Part shown: positions 35,690 to 42,732 of the stretch, in pieces
Layout of the letters: every line of letters begins with the position of its first letter
Numbering within the stretch: position 1 is the stretch's first letter
DNA from: Geothrix fuzhouensis
Lineage (GTDB): Bacteria > Acidobacteriota > Holophagae > Holophagales > Holophagaceae
Direction of reading: 5' to 3'
NCBI RefSeq assembly: GCF_024609325.1
Contig: NZ_JANHMQ010000002.1
Coordinates: 372,001 to 436,000, forward strand
DNA length: 64,000 bases
The notes under the pieces: model-generated
Told to the model about the DNA's origin: nothing
What the model saw: the letters and a program-made list of their open reading frames with translations, nothing else
The model's database searches: none
Translations under genes and position numbers: made by a program

Positions 35690-38600
35690 ATGTATAGACG
35701 TTTAATGCTTGCCCTTATGGCGGCGGTAGTCTCTGCGTCGCAGCCGGCAGACCGCGGAAAAACCGGGTCTCCAGCCTCAATCTCCAAATCGGAAGCGACC
35801 CCGGTCCTGGTCCCGGGCGAAGTGAAGACGGCCGTGATCACGCCACAGGGCAGGGTCGAGGAGGGCTCGGTTCAGGTGAGCGGGCCAATCTCCGTGATCA
35901 TCCAACTGCGGGATGAACCGATCCTGACCCGGAAGAAATCCATGGCGGCCTTGGGTGCACAGGAGCGGGCGCATCAGCTGAGGCAGCACCACGACCGCCT
36001 GGTGAACGCCCAGGCCCAGCTGAAAGCGTGGATCAAGACCCTTGAACCTGGCAAGCGGGACGAGGCCTTCAGGCACTACCGCTTCGCCTTCAACGGGCTG
36101 GCCACCACGGTGTCGTCCGAGACCCTGAAGAAACTGAGACAACAGCCCGATGTGGCGCGGGTGTTCCGTGATGGCGTTGTCAAGGCGACTCTCGCCGATA
36201 GCGTCCCCCTCATCGGGGCACCCCAAATGTGGGCAGATTACGGCGCCGATGGTCAGGGCATTCGTGTAGCCGTGATCGATACCGGCATCGATTACACCCA
36301 TCCGGACCTGGGGGGCGGTTTTGGCCCAGGGTTCAAAGTGATCGGGGGATACGACTTCATTAATGGGGATGGGGATCCCATGGACGACAATGGGCATGGC
36401 ACCCACGTGGCAGGGATCGTCGCGGCCAGTGGAATCATCAAAGGGGTGGCGCCTGGAGCCAAGCTTCTGGCCTACAAGGTTCTCGGCGCAAGCGGAAGCG
36501 GATCGCAAAGCACCATTATCGAAGGCATCGACCGAGCAGTGGATCCAGACCAGGATCCAGGCACGGACGACGGTGCCCAGGTCATCAACCTGAGTTTGGG
36601 AGGCACTGGCGATCCTGATGACGCGGTCTCGCAGGTCGTGGACATAGCCGTGAATGCCGGTGTTGTCTGTGTCGTAGCGGCGGGGAATTCTGGAAGTAAC
36701 TATTCGACCATCGGATCTCCCGCATGTGCACGCGAAGCTCTGACGGTGGGGGCCTCGGACAACCAGGACCTGATGGCTTATTTCAGTTCCCGCGGGCCAA
36801 GCCAGCCGGATCTGGCCATCAAGCCCGATCTCACCGCCCCAGGTGTCTCGATCCGTTCGACTTGGCCGGGCGGTGGCTACCAGGTCGAGAGTGGCACTTC
36901 TATGGCGGCGCCCCATGTGGCAGGCGCCGTGGCCTTACTCCTGCAACTCCATCCCACATGGACGCCCGACATTGTGAAGGCCGTGCTCTCTGAGAGGGCC
37001 AAAGACCTAGGGCAGGATGCCTTCACCCAGGGCAACGGCCGCGTCCAGGTGGTGAACTCTCATCTCGCCAAGGCGGCGATGATTCCAAACAACCTCAACT
37101 TCGGCAACGTGGCCGTGAGCCAGGGAATGTGGAGCAAGACCCAAACCCTGAATCTTAAAAACCTGGACTCCTCTTCGCGTACCTACACCCTGACCATGCA
37201 GGGGCAGACGGCGCCAGGGAGCACTTGGACCATTACCCCCTCTACGGTGGCTCTCAACCCAGGGCAATCCCAAGTTGTATCCGTGGTTCTCACCGTGGAC
37301 AGCAGCGTTCTCCCCTTTGGTCCATCACCCAACATGGCCTTCGAAGCCAAACTGGTGGCCAACTCGGGGGATGATGAGATCAGGATGCCAGTGGTGTTCT
37401 ACAAGGGATGCCTGTTGACAATCAACTTTGATCAAGTCCCCGAATCTGCCATTGTTTTTGATCAAAATAATGATCCTTTTGACGGCTTTGATTATAAGGT
37501 CATTGGCGGATTTGCTACATCGCTTAAACAGACTGTCACTATGATATTGCCACCACGTAAATATGACATCATGTGTCGTTATTTTAATAATGGACAACGT
37601 TATATAGTGAAAGAAAATATTGATTTAATTTTAAACAATAATTTAACAATAAATATTAACTATAATCAAGAAATATTTCATCATGTTTCATTAAAATCAT
37701 TGGATTCCAAAGGAAATGAAATCTGGCCTGCTGATCTTAAAGAGTCTGGCTCCGATTGTACCCTCACCCACCGTTCTGGAATGAAATACGTCTTGCGTGG
37801 AGGGCTTTATGATTTTTATTTTTCAGACATGTCAGATGCCTACACTTTCGACCTCCTTCAATATGGTTGGTCCAATTCATTAAGTGGAAGTAAATATTAT
37901 GAATTTAGACATTCTTTCAATGGGATTTTAAATGACCTAATCCTTATCAGCGCCCCTTCAAAATCAGTAAAGCTCGCATTCAATGTGGATCCGGCCATCG
38001 ATTCGATCTGGGTCGGATTTATGAGATACATGATGTTTTTCGGGGGGGGCCGCTATTGGGGGAATTTTAGCTATGGAAGCATCCAACCTGGTGACCAGCC
38101 GCCTTGGGTGCTGAAGCGACCCTTCAACCTGGAGGTGGACCTCTCTTCCCATCCGCGCCCAGGCTTTCTATCCAGTCAAAGCAGCCCTTATGTCATGGCT
38201 TACCGGGGCGGCAGCATGCCGGAAGAACTTCTTTATGAAGGGGGCCTTCTAAGCGCAGTTGATGGGAACACCATGGGAATCTACGACCATGGGGAGCCCT
38301 CGATCCCCTTCCGCACTACCCAGGGATCGCAGGTGGTGATGGGCGAATCTCCTTCCTTCTGGACGGGGCAGCTTACGGTGTCGCCTGGCTTGGCGACCTT
38401 GTCCAGTTCCAGGGGATATGCCCCTTTGTTCTACGGGCAATCCGCAGACACCGTCCCGGGCGGCCTTTCCTATGAATGGTTCCAAGGCACCTCGCTTCTC
38501 TCGAGTGGGAGTGTGGAATCCTTCATGAAACCGGACTGTCCTCCCCCCATGTTCGGGATTCCCTCGGGGCCTTGCAGCCTGAAAATTCCCTTCGATGGCT

Positions 38601-41479
38601 ACTTCATCAATGGGCAGCGGGGACATGCCGTGGCGACCCTGGCTTTCGACAGCAGTAAGACGGACCAGTCGCCCCCGTTTCTGAAACAGTTCGGCATTCT
38701 GAAGAATGGCGAGACTTCCTCCACGACGGCTGCGGGAGGAGTGAATCAGTTGAAGATCCAAGTGGAGGATGGGGTTTCCCTGGCCCAGTTCCAGGCCTTC
38801 TACCAGACGAGCGGTGATTGGCAGCCCATCGCGTTACCTCTGCCGACCGGACCCAGCGCGGATGTTCTGGTGGATCTGCCATCGAACCTGCCCCAGGGCT
38901 TCGTGAACCTGAAGTTCGTTGCCGCGGACGGAGATGGGAACAGCCTCACTCAAGAGATGACGCCCGCTTTCTACCATTCCGCCCTGCCTGCGCCGGGTAT
39001 GCCCTCTGGCCCCGTGGAGTCCCCAGTGGGGATTTCCAACACCTATACCAGTGCTCTCCCAGGAGCTTGGGGAACGGTGTACTACACCTTCGATTGGGGT
39101 GATGGCACAAGCGCCACCTCCGGTGCAACTCCTTCGGAAGTTCCTGTGAGTGCTTCCCATGTCTGGTCGACTGCGGGAATGTTCTCGGTTCGCGTCAGGG
39201 TGGCGGACGACCTCGGTCAAACCTCCGAGTGGTCTGAAGGCCTGACAGTGTTGGTTCCAGGCCCCCCCGTCATCACCACCCAACCGAGGAGTGGCACCAC
39301 CAACACCGGTGGCTATGGATGGATTCCTACGTTCACGGTGGAGGCCAGGGGAACTGCCCCCCTGTCATACCAATGGTGGAGGAATGGTGCGCCCATCGAA
39401 GGCGCCACGAGCAGTAGTTACACCCTCACCACCTTCACGGTGGCCGATGATGGGGCGCGGTTCTTTGCGGTGGTGAGCAACCCCTATGGAACGGTTGTTT
39501 CCAGCGAAGCCATCCTGACTGTGCTGGGACCTCCAGTCATTACCGCACAGCCCCAAAACATCAGTGTGCTATTGGGCCAACCTGCCACCTTCTCCGTGGA
39601 GGCTTCAGGGCCTGGACCACTGGGCTATTTCTGGTTCAAGAACGGGATTGCCGTTGGAGGCAATTCAAGCACCTACACCACCGCGCCGACTGCCGCCTCG
39701 GACGATGGAGGTTCATTCACTGTCGTAGTAAACAACGCCGTTGGTAGCACTGTATCTAACATTGCGACCCTGACGGTCCTGACCGCGCCGAGCATCGGCG
39801 CCCAACCGCAAAGCACCAGCGTGGTCGCGGGCCAGACGGCGACCTTCAGCGTGACGGCCACCGGCACCGGCCCGCTGACCTACCAGTGGCGGAAGAACAG
39901 CGCCGCCATCAGCGGGGCCACCTCCAGCAGCTACACGACGCCTCCGGTGACGGCGGCGGACAACGGCGCCACCTTCTCGGTGGTGGTGACCAATGCGCAG
40001 GGAAGCGTGCCTTCGGGTGAAGCGACCCTGACGGTCCTGACCGCGCCGAGCATCGGCACCCAGCCCCAAAGCACCAGCGTGGTCGCGGGCCAGACGGCGA
40101 CCTTCAGCGTGACGGCCACCGGCACCGGCCCGCTGACCTACCAGTGGCGGAAGAACGGCGCCGGCATCAGCGGGGCCACCTCCAGCAGCTACACGACGCC
40201 TGCGGTGACGGCGGCGGACAACGGCGCCACCTTCTCGGTGGTGGTGACCAATGCGCAGGGAAGCGTGCCTTCGAGTGACGCGACCCTGACGGTGCTCGTC
40301 GCGCCGAGTATCGGCACCCAGCCGCAAAGCAGCAGCGTGGTCGCGGGCCAGACGGCGACCTTCAGCGTGACGGCCACCGGCACCGGCCCTCTGACCTACC
40401 AGTGGCGGAAGAACAGCGCCGGCATCAGCGGGGCCACCTCCAGCAGCTACACGACGCCTGCGGTGACGGCGGCGGACAACGGCGCCACCTTCTCGGTGGT
40501 GGTGACCAATGCGCAGGGAAGCGTGCCTTCGGGTGACGCGACCCTGACGGTGCTCGTCGCGCCGAGTATCGGCACCCAGCCCCAAAGCACCAGTGTGGTC
40601 GCGGGCCAGACGGCGACCTTCAGCGTGACGGCCACCGGAACCGGCCCTCTGACCTACCAGTGGCGGAAGAACGGCGCCGGCATCAGCGGGGCCACCTCCA
40701 GCAGCTACACGACGCCTGCGGTGACGGCGGCGGACAACGGCGCCACCTTCTCGGTGGTGGTGACCAATGCGCAGGGAAGCGTGCCTTCGGGTGACGCGAC
40801 CCTGACGGTGCTCGTCGCGCCGAGTATCGGCACCCAGCCCCAAAGCACCAGTGTGGTCGCGGGCCAGACGGCGACCTTCAGCGTGACGGCCACCGGAACC
40901 GGCCCTCTGACCTACCAGTGGCGGAAGAACGGCGCCGCCATCAGTGGGGCCACCTCCAGCAGCTACACGACGCCTGCGGTGACGGCGGCGGACAACGGCG
41001 CCACCTTCTCGGTGGTGGTGACCAATGCGCAGGGAAGCGTGCCTTCGAGTGACGCGACCCTGACGGTGCTGACCGCGCTGGTGCCTACCGTGGAGGTCCA
41101 GCCGGCGGCCCTAGGCTGCTTCCCCGGGGAGGCGATCGCGTTCACGGCAAGGGTCACCAATGCCACCGACACCCGTGTGACCTGGACGGTCAGCGCCGGC
41201 ACCATCGACACTTCAGGTCGCTTCAATGCGCCCGGAGCGCCTGGCGTGGTGACGGTCACGGCCACCAGCTTGGCGGACCCCTCTCGAACGGGCATGGCGA
41301 CGATCACCGTGCGCGGGACTGATTTTGATGGCAACACGGCGCTGAATCCGAAGCTCCTGGGCCTGGCCCATGCCATGGGCAGCAACGCCCCTGCGGATCT
41401 GGCCAAGTACGATTTCAACGGCGATGGCTGGATCGATGATGCGGATCTGACCAAGCTTTACCTGAAGATGGGGTGGTGA
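35690..41479 (+). CDS. giant secreted subtilisin with PKD, Ig-like repeats and dockerin-like C-terminus
   Basis: The 1,929-residue protein has a signal peptide (RLMLALMAAVVSASQ), a propeptide and an S8 protease domain with Asp (VIDTGIDYTHPDL), His (GHGTHVAGIV), Asn (AAGNSGS) and Ser (SGTSMAAPHVAGA). A choice-of-anchor-like stretch and a PKD domain (FDWGDGTSA) follow, then seven Ig-like domains, the last five nearly identical 86-residue copies (39781-41070), a Big_2-like domain, and a dockerin-type EF-hand near the C-terminus (YDFNGDGWIDDADL). The ATG at 35690 follows GGAG; it is the start that leads directly into the signal. Coupled to the next gene. Confidence 0.93.
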   Translation: MYRRLMLALMAAVVSASQPADRGKTGSPASISKSEATPVLVPGEVKTAVITPQGRVEEGSVQVSGPISVIIQLRDEPILTRKKSMAALGAQERAHQLRQHHDRLVNAQAQLKAWIKTLEPGKRDEAFRHYRFAFNGLATTVSSETLKKLRQQPDVARVFRDGVVKATLADSVPLIGAPQMWADYGADGQGIRVAVIDTGIDYTHPDLGGGFGPGFKVIGGYDFINGDGDPMDDNGHGTHVAGIVAASGIIKGVAPGAKLLAYKVLGASGSGSQSTIIEGIDRAVDPDQDPGTDDGAQVINLSLGGTGDPDDAVSQVVDIAVNAGVVCVVAAGNSGSNYSTIGSPACAREALTVGASDNQDLMAYFSSRGPSQPDLAIKPDLTAPGVSIRSTWPGGGYQVESGTSMAAPHVAGAVALLLQLHPTWTPDIVKAVLSERAKDLGQDAFTQGNGRVQVVNSHLAKAAMIPNNLNFGNVAVSQGMWSKTQTLNLKNLDSSSRTYTLTMQGQTAPGSTWTITPSTVALNPGQSQVVSVVLTVDSSVLPFGPSPNMAFEAKLVANSGDDEIRMPVVFYKGCLLTINFDQVPESAIVFDQNNDPFDGFDYKVIGGFATSLKQTVTMILPPRKYDIMCRYFNNGQRYIVKENIDLILNNNLTININYNQEIFHHVSLKSLDSKGNEIWPADLKESGSDCTLTHRSGMKYVLRGGLYDFYFSDMSDAYTFDLLQYGWSNSLSGSKYYEFRHSFNGILNDLILISAPSKSVKLAFNVDPAIDSIWVGFMRYMMFFGGGRYWGNFSYGSIQPGDQPPWVLKRPFNLEVDLSSHPRPGFLSSQSSPYVMAYRGGSMPEELLYEGGLLSAVDGNTMGIYDHGEPSIPFRTTQGSQVVMGESPSFWTGQLTVSPGLATLSSSRGYAPLFYGQSADTVPGGLSYEWFQGTSLLSSGSVESFMKPDCPPPMFGIPSGPCSLKIPFDGYFINGQRGHAVATLAFDSSKTDQSPPFLKQFGILKNGETSSTTAAGGVNQLKIQVEDGVSLAQFQAFYQTSGDWQPIALPLPTGPSADVLVDLPSNLPQGFVNLKFVAADGDGNSLTQEMTPAFYHSALPAPGMPSGPVESPVGISNTYTSALPGAWGTVYYTFDWGDGTSATSGATPSEVPVSASHVWSTAGMFSVRVRVADDLGQTSEWSEGLTVLVPGPPVITTQPRSGTTNTGGYGWIPTFTVEARGTAPLSYQWWRNGAPIEGATSSSYTLTTFTVADDGARFFAVVSNPYGTVVSSEAILTVLGPPVITAQPQNISVLLGQPATFSVEASGPGPLGYFWFKNGIAVGGNSSTYTTAPTAASDDGGSFTVVVNNAVGSTVSNIATLTVLTAPSIGAQPQSTSVVAGQTATFSVTATGTGPLTYQWRKNSAAISGATSSSYTTPPVTAADNGATFSVVVTNAQGSVPSGEATLTVLTAPSIGTQPQSTSVVAGQTATFSVTATGTGPLTYQWRKNGAGISGATSSSYTTPAVTAADNGATFSVVVTNAQGSVPSSDATLTVLVAPSIGTQPQSSSVVAGQTATFSVTATGTGPLTYQWRKNSAGISGATSSSYTTPAVTAADNGATFSVVVTNAQGSVPSGDATLTVLVAPSIGTQPQSTSVVAGQTATFSVTATGTGPLTYQWRKNGAGISGATSSSYTTPAVTAADNGATFSVVVTNAQGSVPSGDATLTVLVAPSIGTQPQSTSVVAGQTATFSVTATGTGPLTYQWRKNGAAISGATSSSYTTPAVTAADNGATFSVVVTNAQGSVPSSDATLTVLTALVPTVEVQPAALGCFPGEAIAFTARVTNATDTRVTWTVSAGTIDTSGRFNAPGAPGVVTVTATSLADPSRTGMATITVRGTDFDGNTALNPKLLGLAHAMGSNAPADLAKYDFNGDGWIDDADLTKLYLKMGW
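39781..41070 (+). repeat. five tandem 258-bp repeats encoding Ig-like domains
   Basis: Units begin at 39781, 40039, 40297, 40555 and 40813, each 258 bp (86 codons) and almost identical at DNA level. Differences between units are a few bases (for example AGC/GGC at KNS/KNG). Two diverged Ig-like domains lie just before. Such an array can gain or lose units by recombination. Confidence 0.95.
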
Positions 41480-41482
41480 GAC

Positions 41483-42064
41483 ATGGGCATGACCCGATGG
41501 GTTTTCATGGCAGGCGCATTGGTGGTCCTGACGGCTTGTGGTGGTGGGGGAGGGGGCGGCACCAGCTCCCAGCCCTCACAGCCTGCAAAGGCCGTGGGGT
41601 TGGCGTACACGGATCCTGCAAGCGGAAGCTTCCGCCTGGTCAGGGATGCCAGCAGCACCAGCACCAAGCTCATCCTGCGACTGGTTGGGCCGGCGGCTTC
41701 CACGGGACGGGGTGTGGCCTTCACCTTCACGGTGGACCCGGCCCTGGCCGATTTGGTGAAGGTGGCGGATGCGGATGCCGAATACGTCCAGAACGGAGAT
41801 GCCTTCGTCCTCGGTGATGCACCCCGTTTCCTCAAGGGGATCAAGCAGAACGGGACGGTCAGCGTGACGGTCTCGCAGAAGGGGCAGGGCTCAGCCAGGG
41901 CCCTCGATGCCACGCTCCTGAAGGTGGCGGTCCAGTTCAAAGCCACTGCGGGCCTCAATGCCGGCACCGTGATACCCATCAGTGTGACGGAGGGGCAGTA
42001 CCTTCCGGCAATCGGCGGACCTGCGGCCATGAACGTAAGCACCGGTTCCCTCAAGGCGCAGTAG
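41483..42064 (+). CDS. lipoprotein with cohesin-like domain
   Basis: The 193-residue protein starts three bases after the protease stop. It has a lipoprotein signal (GALVVLTACGGG, Cys near residue 19), a Gly/Ser/Gln linker and a domain of about 150 residues with the cohesin-like order: a strand TKLILRLVG, GVAFTFTVDPALADLVKV (compare the YDP-type turn of cohesins), GTVSVTVSQ and LLKVAVQFKATAGLNAGT. Cohesins bind dockerins, and the protease next door ends in a dockerin-like motif. The cohesin call is from pattern, so it needs a profile search. Confidence 0.7.
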   Translation: MGMTRWVFMAGALVVLTACGGGGGGGTSSQPSQPAKAVGLAYTDPASGSFRLVRDASSTSTKLILRLVGPAASTGRGVAFTFTVDPALADLVKVADADAEYVQNGDAFVLGDAPRFLKGIKQNGTVSVTVSQKGQGSARALDATLLKVAVQFKATAGLNAGTVIPISVTEGQYLPAIGGPAAMNVSTGSLKAQ

Positions 42065-42123: not shown

Positions 42124-42732
42124 TCAGGCCCGTTCCCGCAAACCATGCACGTCGCGGAACAGGGCCTGGATGTGGGGCAGGTCCGCCTCCAGATCACCGG
42201 TGGGCCGGAACACGGGCATCAGCTGAACCACATGCTGGCGGAAGTCGAAGCCCACAGGCCAGATGGGCACGTCGGCCGCGATCGCGATCCGGTAGAACCC
42301 TGACTTCCACTGGCTCACGCCCTTGCGGGTGCCTTCCGGGGCCAAGGCCAGCAGGCGGGCGGGCACGCCTTCAAAGGCCTTCACGCAGGCGTCCACCACC
42401 CCATGCGCGGCCCGGCGATCCACGGGGATGCCGCCCAGCCAGAAGAAGAAGCGCTTGAGCGGGCTCTGGAAGAGGGAGTGCTTGCCGAGCCAGGACACGC
42501 GCATTTCCAGGGCAAAGACCACGGCCACGCCCAGCGCGAAATCCCAGTTCGACGTGTGGGGGGCCACGATGGTGACGAACTTGGGTTCCGTGGGGAAGGC
42601 GCCTTCGATGCGCCAGCCGGCCAGCCGCAGGTAGGTCCGTCCAATCGCTCGCCACACCCATCCCCGAGGTTGGCGCAGCACGGGGGGAGTGCTTGGGTAT
42701 TCCGTGGGCTGGTGCAAGGGCTGCCTCGCCAA
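42124..42732 (-). CDS. lysophospholipid acyltransferase-like protein
   Basis: The 202-residue protein has the PlsC motif PHTSNWDFAL (His-x4-Asp), GGIPVDRR and LAPEGTRK in the right order and spacing, so it should acylate a lysophospholipid-type acceptor; small members such as this are often annotated 1-acyl-glycerol-3-phosphate acyltransferases. No ATG is available at the N-terminus: the start shown is a TTG at 42732, and a downstream GTG is possible, so the first 20 residues are uncertain. Confidence 0.8.
   Translation of the reverse strand: MARQPLHQPTEYPSTPPVLRQPRGWVWRAIGRTYLRLAGWRIEGAFPTEPKFVTIVAPHTSNWDFALGVAVVFALEMRVSWLGKHSLFQSPLKRFFFWLGGIPVDRRAAHGVVDACVKAFEGVPARLLALAPEGTRKGVSQWKSGFYRIAIAADVPIWPVGFDFRQHVVQLMPVFRPTGDLEADLPHIQALFRDVHGLRERA

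Follow-up and report, generated by a model that had tools for sequence, protein, structure and literature searches.

A subtilisin with a dockerin-type tail and an adjacent cohesin-fold lipoprotein: a candidate surface-tethering pair in Geothrix fuzhouensis and its relatives

Gene arrangement at the locus

We analyzed a stretch of 64,000 nucleotides from Geothrix fuzhouensis (Acidobacteriota, Holophagaceae; contig NZ_JANHMQ010000002.1, positions 372,001 to 436,000), hereafter called the window, and focus on two consecutive genes: one encodes a secreted subtilisin-family protease that ends in a dockerin-type tail, the other a predicted lipoprotein with a single cohesin-fold domain. The features of the pair, in window coordinates, are:

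35690..41479, + strand: secreted subtilisin-family (S8) protease (Pfam and motif reading)
36251..37036, + strand: S8 catalytic domain, residues 188-449 (limits of the Pfam Peptidase_S8 alignment)
39764..41078, + strand: 258-bp tandem array, 5.1 copies with 97% matches, encoding near-identical immunoglobulin (Ig)-like domains (Tandem Repeats Finder; Ig_3/I-set from Pfam)
41318..41476, + strand: dockerin-type tail of 53 amino acids, first loop degenerate, second loop canonical, DFNGDGWIDDADL (Pfam, tail profile, model)
41483..42064, + strand: lipoprotein with signal peptide and lipobox, Gly-rich/Pro-Ser tether and single cohesin-fold domain (sequence, AlphaFold2 (AF2), profile-profile comparison)
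41537..41602, + strand: predicted lipid-anchor cysteine and flexible tether, CGGGGGGGTSSQPSQPAKAVGL (sequence)

The open reading frame (ORF) of the protease runs from the ATG at 35690 to the TGA at 41477-41479 and encodes 1929 amino acids, the C-terminal end of which reads TDFDGNTALNPKLLGLAHAMGSNAPADLAKYDFNGDGWIDDADLTKLYLKMGW. From N to C terminus the protein comprises a signal-peptide-like start, an I9-type propeptide, the S8 catalytic domain, a middle part free of Pfam matches, a PKD-like domain, seven Ig-like stretches and the dockerin tail. Pfam reports Peptidase_S8 (E 2.4e-66, 224.4 bits), Inhibitor_I9 (E 1.4e-8), Ig_3 in seven stretches and, below its cut-off, PKD_4. The catalytic motifs are intact (VIDTGIDYTHPDL, HGTHVAG, AAGNSGS and GTSMAAPHVAG) and the Asp-His-Ser triad is present (motifs at residues 195, 236 and 402), which places the protein among the S8 subtilases. 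The 258-bp repeats would point to a recent expansion or to ongoing gene conversion of the Ig-like domains. An AT-rich patch lies in the Pfam-free part (positions 37250-38000, GC content 0.35-0.39 against 0.6-0.7 in the flanks) and may represent foreign DNA that was inserted within the gene.

The protease stop is followed by GAC and then, in frame, by the ATG of the lipoprotein gene at 41483; coordinates and letters agree with the preliminary description of the locus, which had this gene start three bases past the stop. Its product of 193 amino acids begins with a directly readable signal peptide and lipobox (MGMTRWVFMAGALVVLTAC; lipobox LTAC, Cys19), so that lipidation is predicted.

A cohesin fold in the lipoprotein

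Structure prediction with AF2 was carried out on a fused dockerin-lipoprotein chain, using an alignment of 40 in-frame fused rows with full signal peptides (A4); a first fused alignment (A3) was dropped because MAFFT had put the starts of lipoproteins on the dockerin. The predicted local distance difference test (pLDDT) reaches 90-98 across the lipoprotein domain. In a Foldseek comparison of the lipoprotein model with the Protein Data Bank (PDB) the best matches are cohesins (top match 5nrm_A, E 1.8e-6), including the non-cellulosomal cohesins of Archaeoglobus fulgidus (2xdh) and Clostridium perfringens (2jh2, 2vo8). Of the 50 entries that VIA-align lists, 49 are likewise cohesins, with Z scores of 8.4-11.7 over residues 102-248 of the model; 4u3s_A comes first (Z 11.7, 3.0 Å, 138 residues). 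The cohesin-like domain that the preliminary description had seen in the lipoprotein thus holds at the level of the predicted fold, which matched almost nothing else.

Homology was assessed with a profile of 55 lipoprotein homologues (A1). Two of these 55 members match Pfam Cohesin (PF00963, cut-off 24.1 bits) at E<=1, and one of them, L110 from G086 (a genome of another family of the phylum), exceeds the cut-off with 28.0 bits; there too, a dockerin gene precedes the lipoprotein. When A1 was aligned by hhalign to a profile of 16 Pfam-detected cohesins of relatives (A6), a score of 40.3 was obtained (P 4.3e-6, probability 86.8), against at most 15.4 for the controls (30 column-shuffled profiles and one reversed profile). 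Fold, the Pfam match of L110 and profile-profile comparison are three independent computational routes by which the domain is identified as a cohesin.

A dockerin-type tail on the protease

The second loop of the protease tail fits the pattern D-x-N-x-D-G-W-x-D-x-x-D. Of the 39 tails in the alignment, all taken from this position in the gene, 37 match Pfam Dockerin_1 (PF00404, cut-off 22.9 bits) at E<=1, and many relatives exceed the cut-off. A search of PDB sequences with the tail profile puts dockerins on top (2y3n_B, E 2.1e-10, then 6kg9, 5lxv, 6kgc and 2jnk), with EF-hand proteins mixed in among the lower matches. The model of the tail consists of three helices and weakly suggests closeness to dockerins.

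An EF-hand end with dockerin spacing had been proposed for this protease, and this is borne out for the second loop only: compared with relatives, the first loop, DFDGNTALNPKLL, has one residue less, and its final Asp is missing. Relatives have both calcium loops (the paralogous pair in the same genome is an example), and the close tails in G047 and G057 (52-63% identity) share the degenerate first loop. We take the window tail as a dockerin with one worn repeat. Classical dockerins bind in two symmetric orientations; by analogy, a tail with a worn loop would hardly do so.

Recurrence of the pair in related genomes

Lipoprotein homologues were found in 57 of the 100 genomes searched, the own genome included. 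We examined 93 lipoprotein places (91 in the family of the window, two in G086), after exclusion of 18 weaker rows (E 3e-6 to 9.5e-4) that mostly cover the lipobox region alone and two of which are second pieces of retained places. At 72 of the 93 places the ORF directly upstream ends in a strict dockerin motif, and this number rises to 79 when clear variants are included. The 21 places where the strict motif fails comprise four variant tails (L060, L063, L071, L107), three lipoproteins with a long N-terminal extension and a visible dockerin gene (L032, L057, L075), a contig start (L082), two dockerin genes located downstream (L079, L095), a diverged tail (the second place in L085) and the first lipoprotein of four lipoprotein-protease-lipoprotein trios (L070, L074, L078, L087); the other six are considered below. 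In these trios two lipoproteins flank a protease-like protein with a diverged dockerin-like tail, which in L070, the only one scanned, is an M4 thermolysin.

The reverse count, confined to the Dockerin_1 matches listed in the family's 61 genomes (G000-G060), gives a similar picture: 56 of the 66 dockerins are followed on their own strand by a lipoprotein gene no more than 1 kb away. Of the remaining ten, one has its lipoprotein 1029 bases downstream, another lies at the end of a contig, a third has the lipoprotein gene on its opposite side, and two are parts of proteins that have a cohesin of their own. Taken in both directions, these counts strongly support the coupling of the two genes for which the preliminary description had proposed to look in related genomes. 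Between the upstream stop and the codon of the lipobox Cys lie 47-82 bases in 71 of the 73 pairs measured, with a median of 74, a spacing as in translationally coupled operons, to which it might point.

Of 24 loci in named assemblies, many of them from the same genomes as the 93 places, 21 have the motif upstream, among them the locus in Geothrix fermentans DSM 14018. The exceptions are L221 (labelled as a proteobacterial metagenome-assembled genome), in which a diverged tail can be seen by eye, and L216 and L220, where none was seen. In G091, from another family of the phylum, we observed 54 Dockerin_1 matches next to one weak Pfam cohesin match; this genome may hold a large dockerin set with cohesins that Pfam does not recognize.

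Within the own genome (six contigs, 3.3 Mb) a Dockerin_1 search at E<=10 returned four places, the two best of which (36.6 and 16.8 bits) each lie directly 5' of a lipoprotein homologue. Two clear dockerins, on the subtilisin and on a Vps10-like protein, and two lipoprotein homologues thus form two pairs (dockerins at C2:413375 and C2:260945; lipoproteins at C2:413483 and C2:260341). Searches of this genome revealed no protein with several cohesins: profile A1 matched only the two lipoproteins and one further sequence at E 2.6, and a search with Pfam Cohesin gave a single match at E 0.238. Neither a multi-cohesin scaffoldin nor a large number of dockerin-bearing polysaccharide-degrading enzymes, by which a cellulosome is recognized, was found in the own genome, and placing the pair outside any cellulosome, as had been done before, fits with this.

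Two neighbouring genes deserve mention. Downstream of the window pair an ORF at 42124-42732, acyltransferase-like from a look at its sequence, lies on the other strand, so that the protease and the lipoprotein stand alone. The second pair of the genome is followed on the same strand by:

L149:4979-8233 (C2 ~256978-260232), - strand: lipoprotein-like protein of 1085 amino acids that carries TIG domains and a metalloprotease domain of the M66 type

Partner proteins

We scanned 30 distinct upstream proteins that were picked for diversity, and the proportions given here are therefore not natural frequencies; many of the raw pairs belong to two similarity clusters of Vps10/BNR-type proteins. The partners were assigned as follows.

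S8 subtilisin, 1 of 30: the window
C1 papain, 2 of 30: L056 and L084 (partial)
M4 thermolysin, 7 of 30
M6, 1 of 30: L060
C10, 1 of 30: L062
S53 (activation domain), 2 of 30: L077 and L107
Vps10/BNR propellers, 12 of 30: three slightly below the Vps10 cut-off
Neither protease nor propeller, 4 of 30: L061 (with NPCBM domains), L067, L093 and L110

Proteases of six unrelated families thus make up 14 of the 30, and what the partners have in common is the dockerin/cohesin cassette rather than the enzyme. The window protease illustrates this point: over its length no orthologue was found in the 37 other genomes of the genus that were searched (E<=1e-20), and the matches at this threshold cover the catalytic domain only, with the best ones in other families. 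The protease part is therefore not common to the genus, unlike the dockerin/lipoprotein part.

With a lipoprotein gene directly behind a protease gene, and proteases among nearly half of the scanned partners, it might be argued that the cell uses the lipoprotein as an inhibitor or immunity protein to guard itself from its own protease. We regard this as highly improbable: a single inhibitor fold would have to act on unrelated catalytic domains (S8, C1, M4, M6, C10 and S53), the 12 Vps10/BNR partners have no detected protease domain at all, and the feature that the partners share is the dockerin tail.

Co-variation of dockerin and cohesin

Over 72 pairs, the distances among dockerins correlate with those among cohesins at r 0.787. 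Re-pairing within genomes (21 genomes with more than one pair, 5000 trials) lowers this to a mean of 0.481 and a maximum of 0.708. The true pairs surpass all re-pairings and are therefore inherited as units, and the pattern agrees with a private recognition of each dockerin by its own cohesin. Alternatively, every cohesin lipoprotein might accept every dockerin of the cell, with adjacency setting the dosage and the surface coat being mixed. There is a single family of cohesins and a single family of dockerins, and with few pairs per genome promiscuity would be cheap; nonetheless, true pairs track each other better than any of the re-pairings, and we consider shared binding of this kind unlikely, even though linkage alone could suffice to produce the correlation.

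Proposed mechanism

We consider it probable that the pair represents cohesin-dockerin tethering of one enzyme by one anchor to the outer membrane, and that Geothrix and other Holophagaceae use this arrangement without a scaffoldin. This largely bears out the preliminary description, which had proposed that a secreted protease is anchored to the cell surface in this way. The subtilisin would be exported with its C-terminal dockerin as a plug, while the next gene would supply an outer-membrane lipoprotein whose sole folded domain, the cohesin, would form the socket on a short flexible tether. The dockerin would then bind the cohesin encoded by its neighbour, presumably in a calcium-dependent manner, and lipid anchor and tether would keep the protease at the envelope instead of losing it to the medium, most likely at the outer face of the outer membrane. 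The same cassette would serve unrelated protease families and Vps10/BNR propellers across the Holophagaceae, each with a lipoprotein of its own.

The membrane involved can be judged from the lipobox. In E. coli the residue after the lipidated Cys directs sorting to the outer membrane. We located the lipobox in 86 of the 93 homologues; at position +2 they have Gly 77 times, Ser 8 times, Lys once and Asp never. Gly or Ser in 85 of 86 would fit outer-membrane sorting by the E. coli rule. Four lipoproteins (L064, L083, L102, L219) have an extra segment of about 75-90 amino acids between lipobox and cohesin, which looks Ig-like in its sequence and might serve as a longer tether.

As Gly at +2 predicts the outer membrane and is silent on its face, binding could also take place inside the envelope, where a periplasm-facing lipoprotein would help export as an escort, a chaperone or a factor for temporary retention. 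The partners are indeed large, multi-domain and unrelated secreted proteins, as a general export factor would need. Each partner has a private copy of the lipoprotein, however, where a general factor would be shared, and known cohesin-dockerin pairs act outside the cell (PMC9012536). An escort function therefore seems rather unlikely to us.

Several observations weigh against tethering by a cohesin and a dockerin at the cell surface. On the side of the cohesin, the lipoprotein alone gives chance-level matches and no cohesin when searched against Pfam, NCBIfam and the PDB (phmmer), and no cohesin was found either when PDB sequences were searched with profile A1 (hmmsearch). On the side of the dockerin, the first loop is degenerate; the window tail remains under the Dockerin_1 cut-off (12.3 bits within the whole protein, 18.6 bits for the tail alone); and in the fused AF2 model the dockerin part has block pLDDT values of only about 39-76. 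Modelled by itself, the tail gives a best Foldseek E of 0.92, and although 14 of the 15 rows listed by VIA-align are dockerin-bearing chains, Z is at most 4.7; a weak structural match is to be expected of a domain of 53 residues. As to the pairing, six of the 93 lipoprotein places have no recognizable dockerin gene at the expected position (L055, L066, L081, L091, L104, L111; in L091 a Dockerin_1 match lies within 1 kb, but off the parsed tail), and five of the 66 family dockerins lack a nearby lipoprotein for no visible reason. Tight linkage would lead one to expect co-variation even if there were no binding, and the position at the outer face is one that we infer.

Some of these points would suit a situation without any binding, in which the tail is an EF-hand stabilizer or makes some other contact, the cohesin-fold lipoprotein has another ligand, and both genes are merely co-transcribed. 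Apart from the worn first loop, this would agree with the lack of a readable dockerin-cohesin interface in the model and with the fact that the phylum has cohesin domains in ORFs of other kinds as well. It is very improbable in our view, given that the repeated co-occurrence of plug and socket behind unrelated partners is hard to explain without an interaction.

Comparison with known systems

Cohesin-dockerin binding is best known from the cellulosomes of Gram-positive plant-degraders, and non-cellulosomal cohesins and dockerins reportedly occur in all domains of life, as Peer et al. are said to have described in 2009. In A. fulgidus the cohesin and dockerin genes are neighbours; to our knowledge, this pair has neither a lipoprotein anchor nor a protease partner. 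It resembles the present pair in combining a cohesin and a dockerin outside a cellulosome (our model against 2xdh: Z 10.0, 2.5 Å, 119 residues), but is archaeal, whereas here a family-wide set of operons is seen in bacteria. Binding of archaeal cohesins and dockerins is reported in PMC9012536 and PMC9705933.

The secreted glycoside hydrolases of C. perfringens (2jh2, 2vo8, 2ozn) are similar in having non-cellulosomal modules on secreted enzymes; their cohesins align well with the lipoprotein model (VIA-align Z 11.3 for 2vo8 and 11.1 for 2jh2) and the tail profile picks up their dockerin chain 2jnk/2ozn (E 4.3e-7). In that organism both modules sit on enzymes, which thereby join each other, while the cohesin described here sits on a lipoprotein without an enzyme domain. 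The anchoring cohesins of cellulosomes, finally, share the principle of a cell-fixed cohesin that holds a dockerin-bearing protein, and the model matches those of SdbA (2bm3), OlpA (3ul4) and ScaE (2zf9). Cellulosome anchoring relies on Gram-positive S-layer or sortase anchors, scaffoldins and cellulases; here single-cohesin lipoproteins accompany proteases and propellers, and the searches of the genome revealed no protein with several cohesins.

A related arrangement within the genus is G030:C243 (L192:3-5252), which has an S8 domain, a Pfam Cohesin match of 44.4 bits and a weak dockerin match. Here cohesin and dockerin are part of one chain, and no lipoprotein match was found on that contig. 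A second S8 protease of the genus with cohesin and dockerin-like stretches in one chain is L193 (G031:C403), in which a dockerin match is flanked by two cohesin matches.

In the literature on dockerins with Geothrix/Holophaga, the legend of a supplementary figure in PMC5900883 pools dockerin, cohesin and S-layer counts. In the literature covered, which lies mostly outside subscription journals and deals with non-cellulosomal cohesins and with cohesins or dockerins in connection with Acidobacteria, Geothrix/Holophaga, proteases, lipoproteins and neighbouring genes, we found no description of a protease/lipoprotein cohesin-dockerin operon. Non-cellulosomal cohesin-dockerin pairs are known, and the protease/lipoprotein operon system appears to be a further form of such pairs.

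Significance

The dozens of natural plug/socket pairs would offer material to study the evolution of specificity as well as building blocks for surface display, and the puzzle of non-cellulosomal cohesins and dockerins gains a setting open to tests in strains that are in culture, Geothrix fermentans DSM 14018 being one of them. The finding would be larger than a single pair, namely a family-wide plug-and-socket arrangement on unrelated secreted proteins that works without a scaffold. We somewhat favour the view that it amounts to a general enzyme display in the Holophagaceae, with a portable cassette on at least six protease families and on Vps10/BNR proteins, each with an outer-membrane socket of its own; these sockets might be mutually orthogonal. 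Geothrix is known for reducing insoluble iron; the present arrangement would give this lineage of two-membrane soil and sediment bacteria a means of holding its proteases and propeller proteins at the cell.

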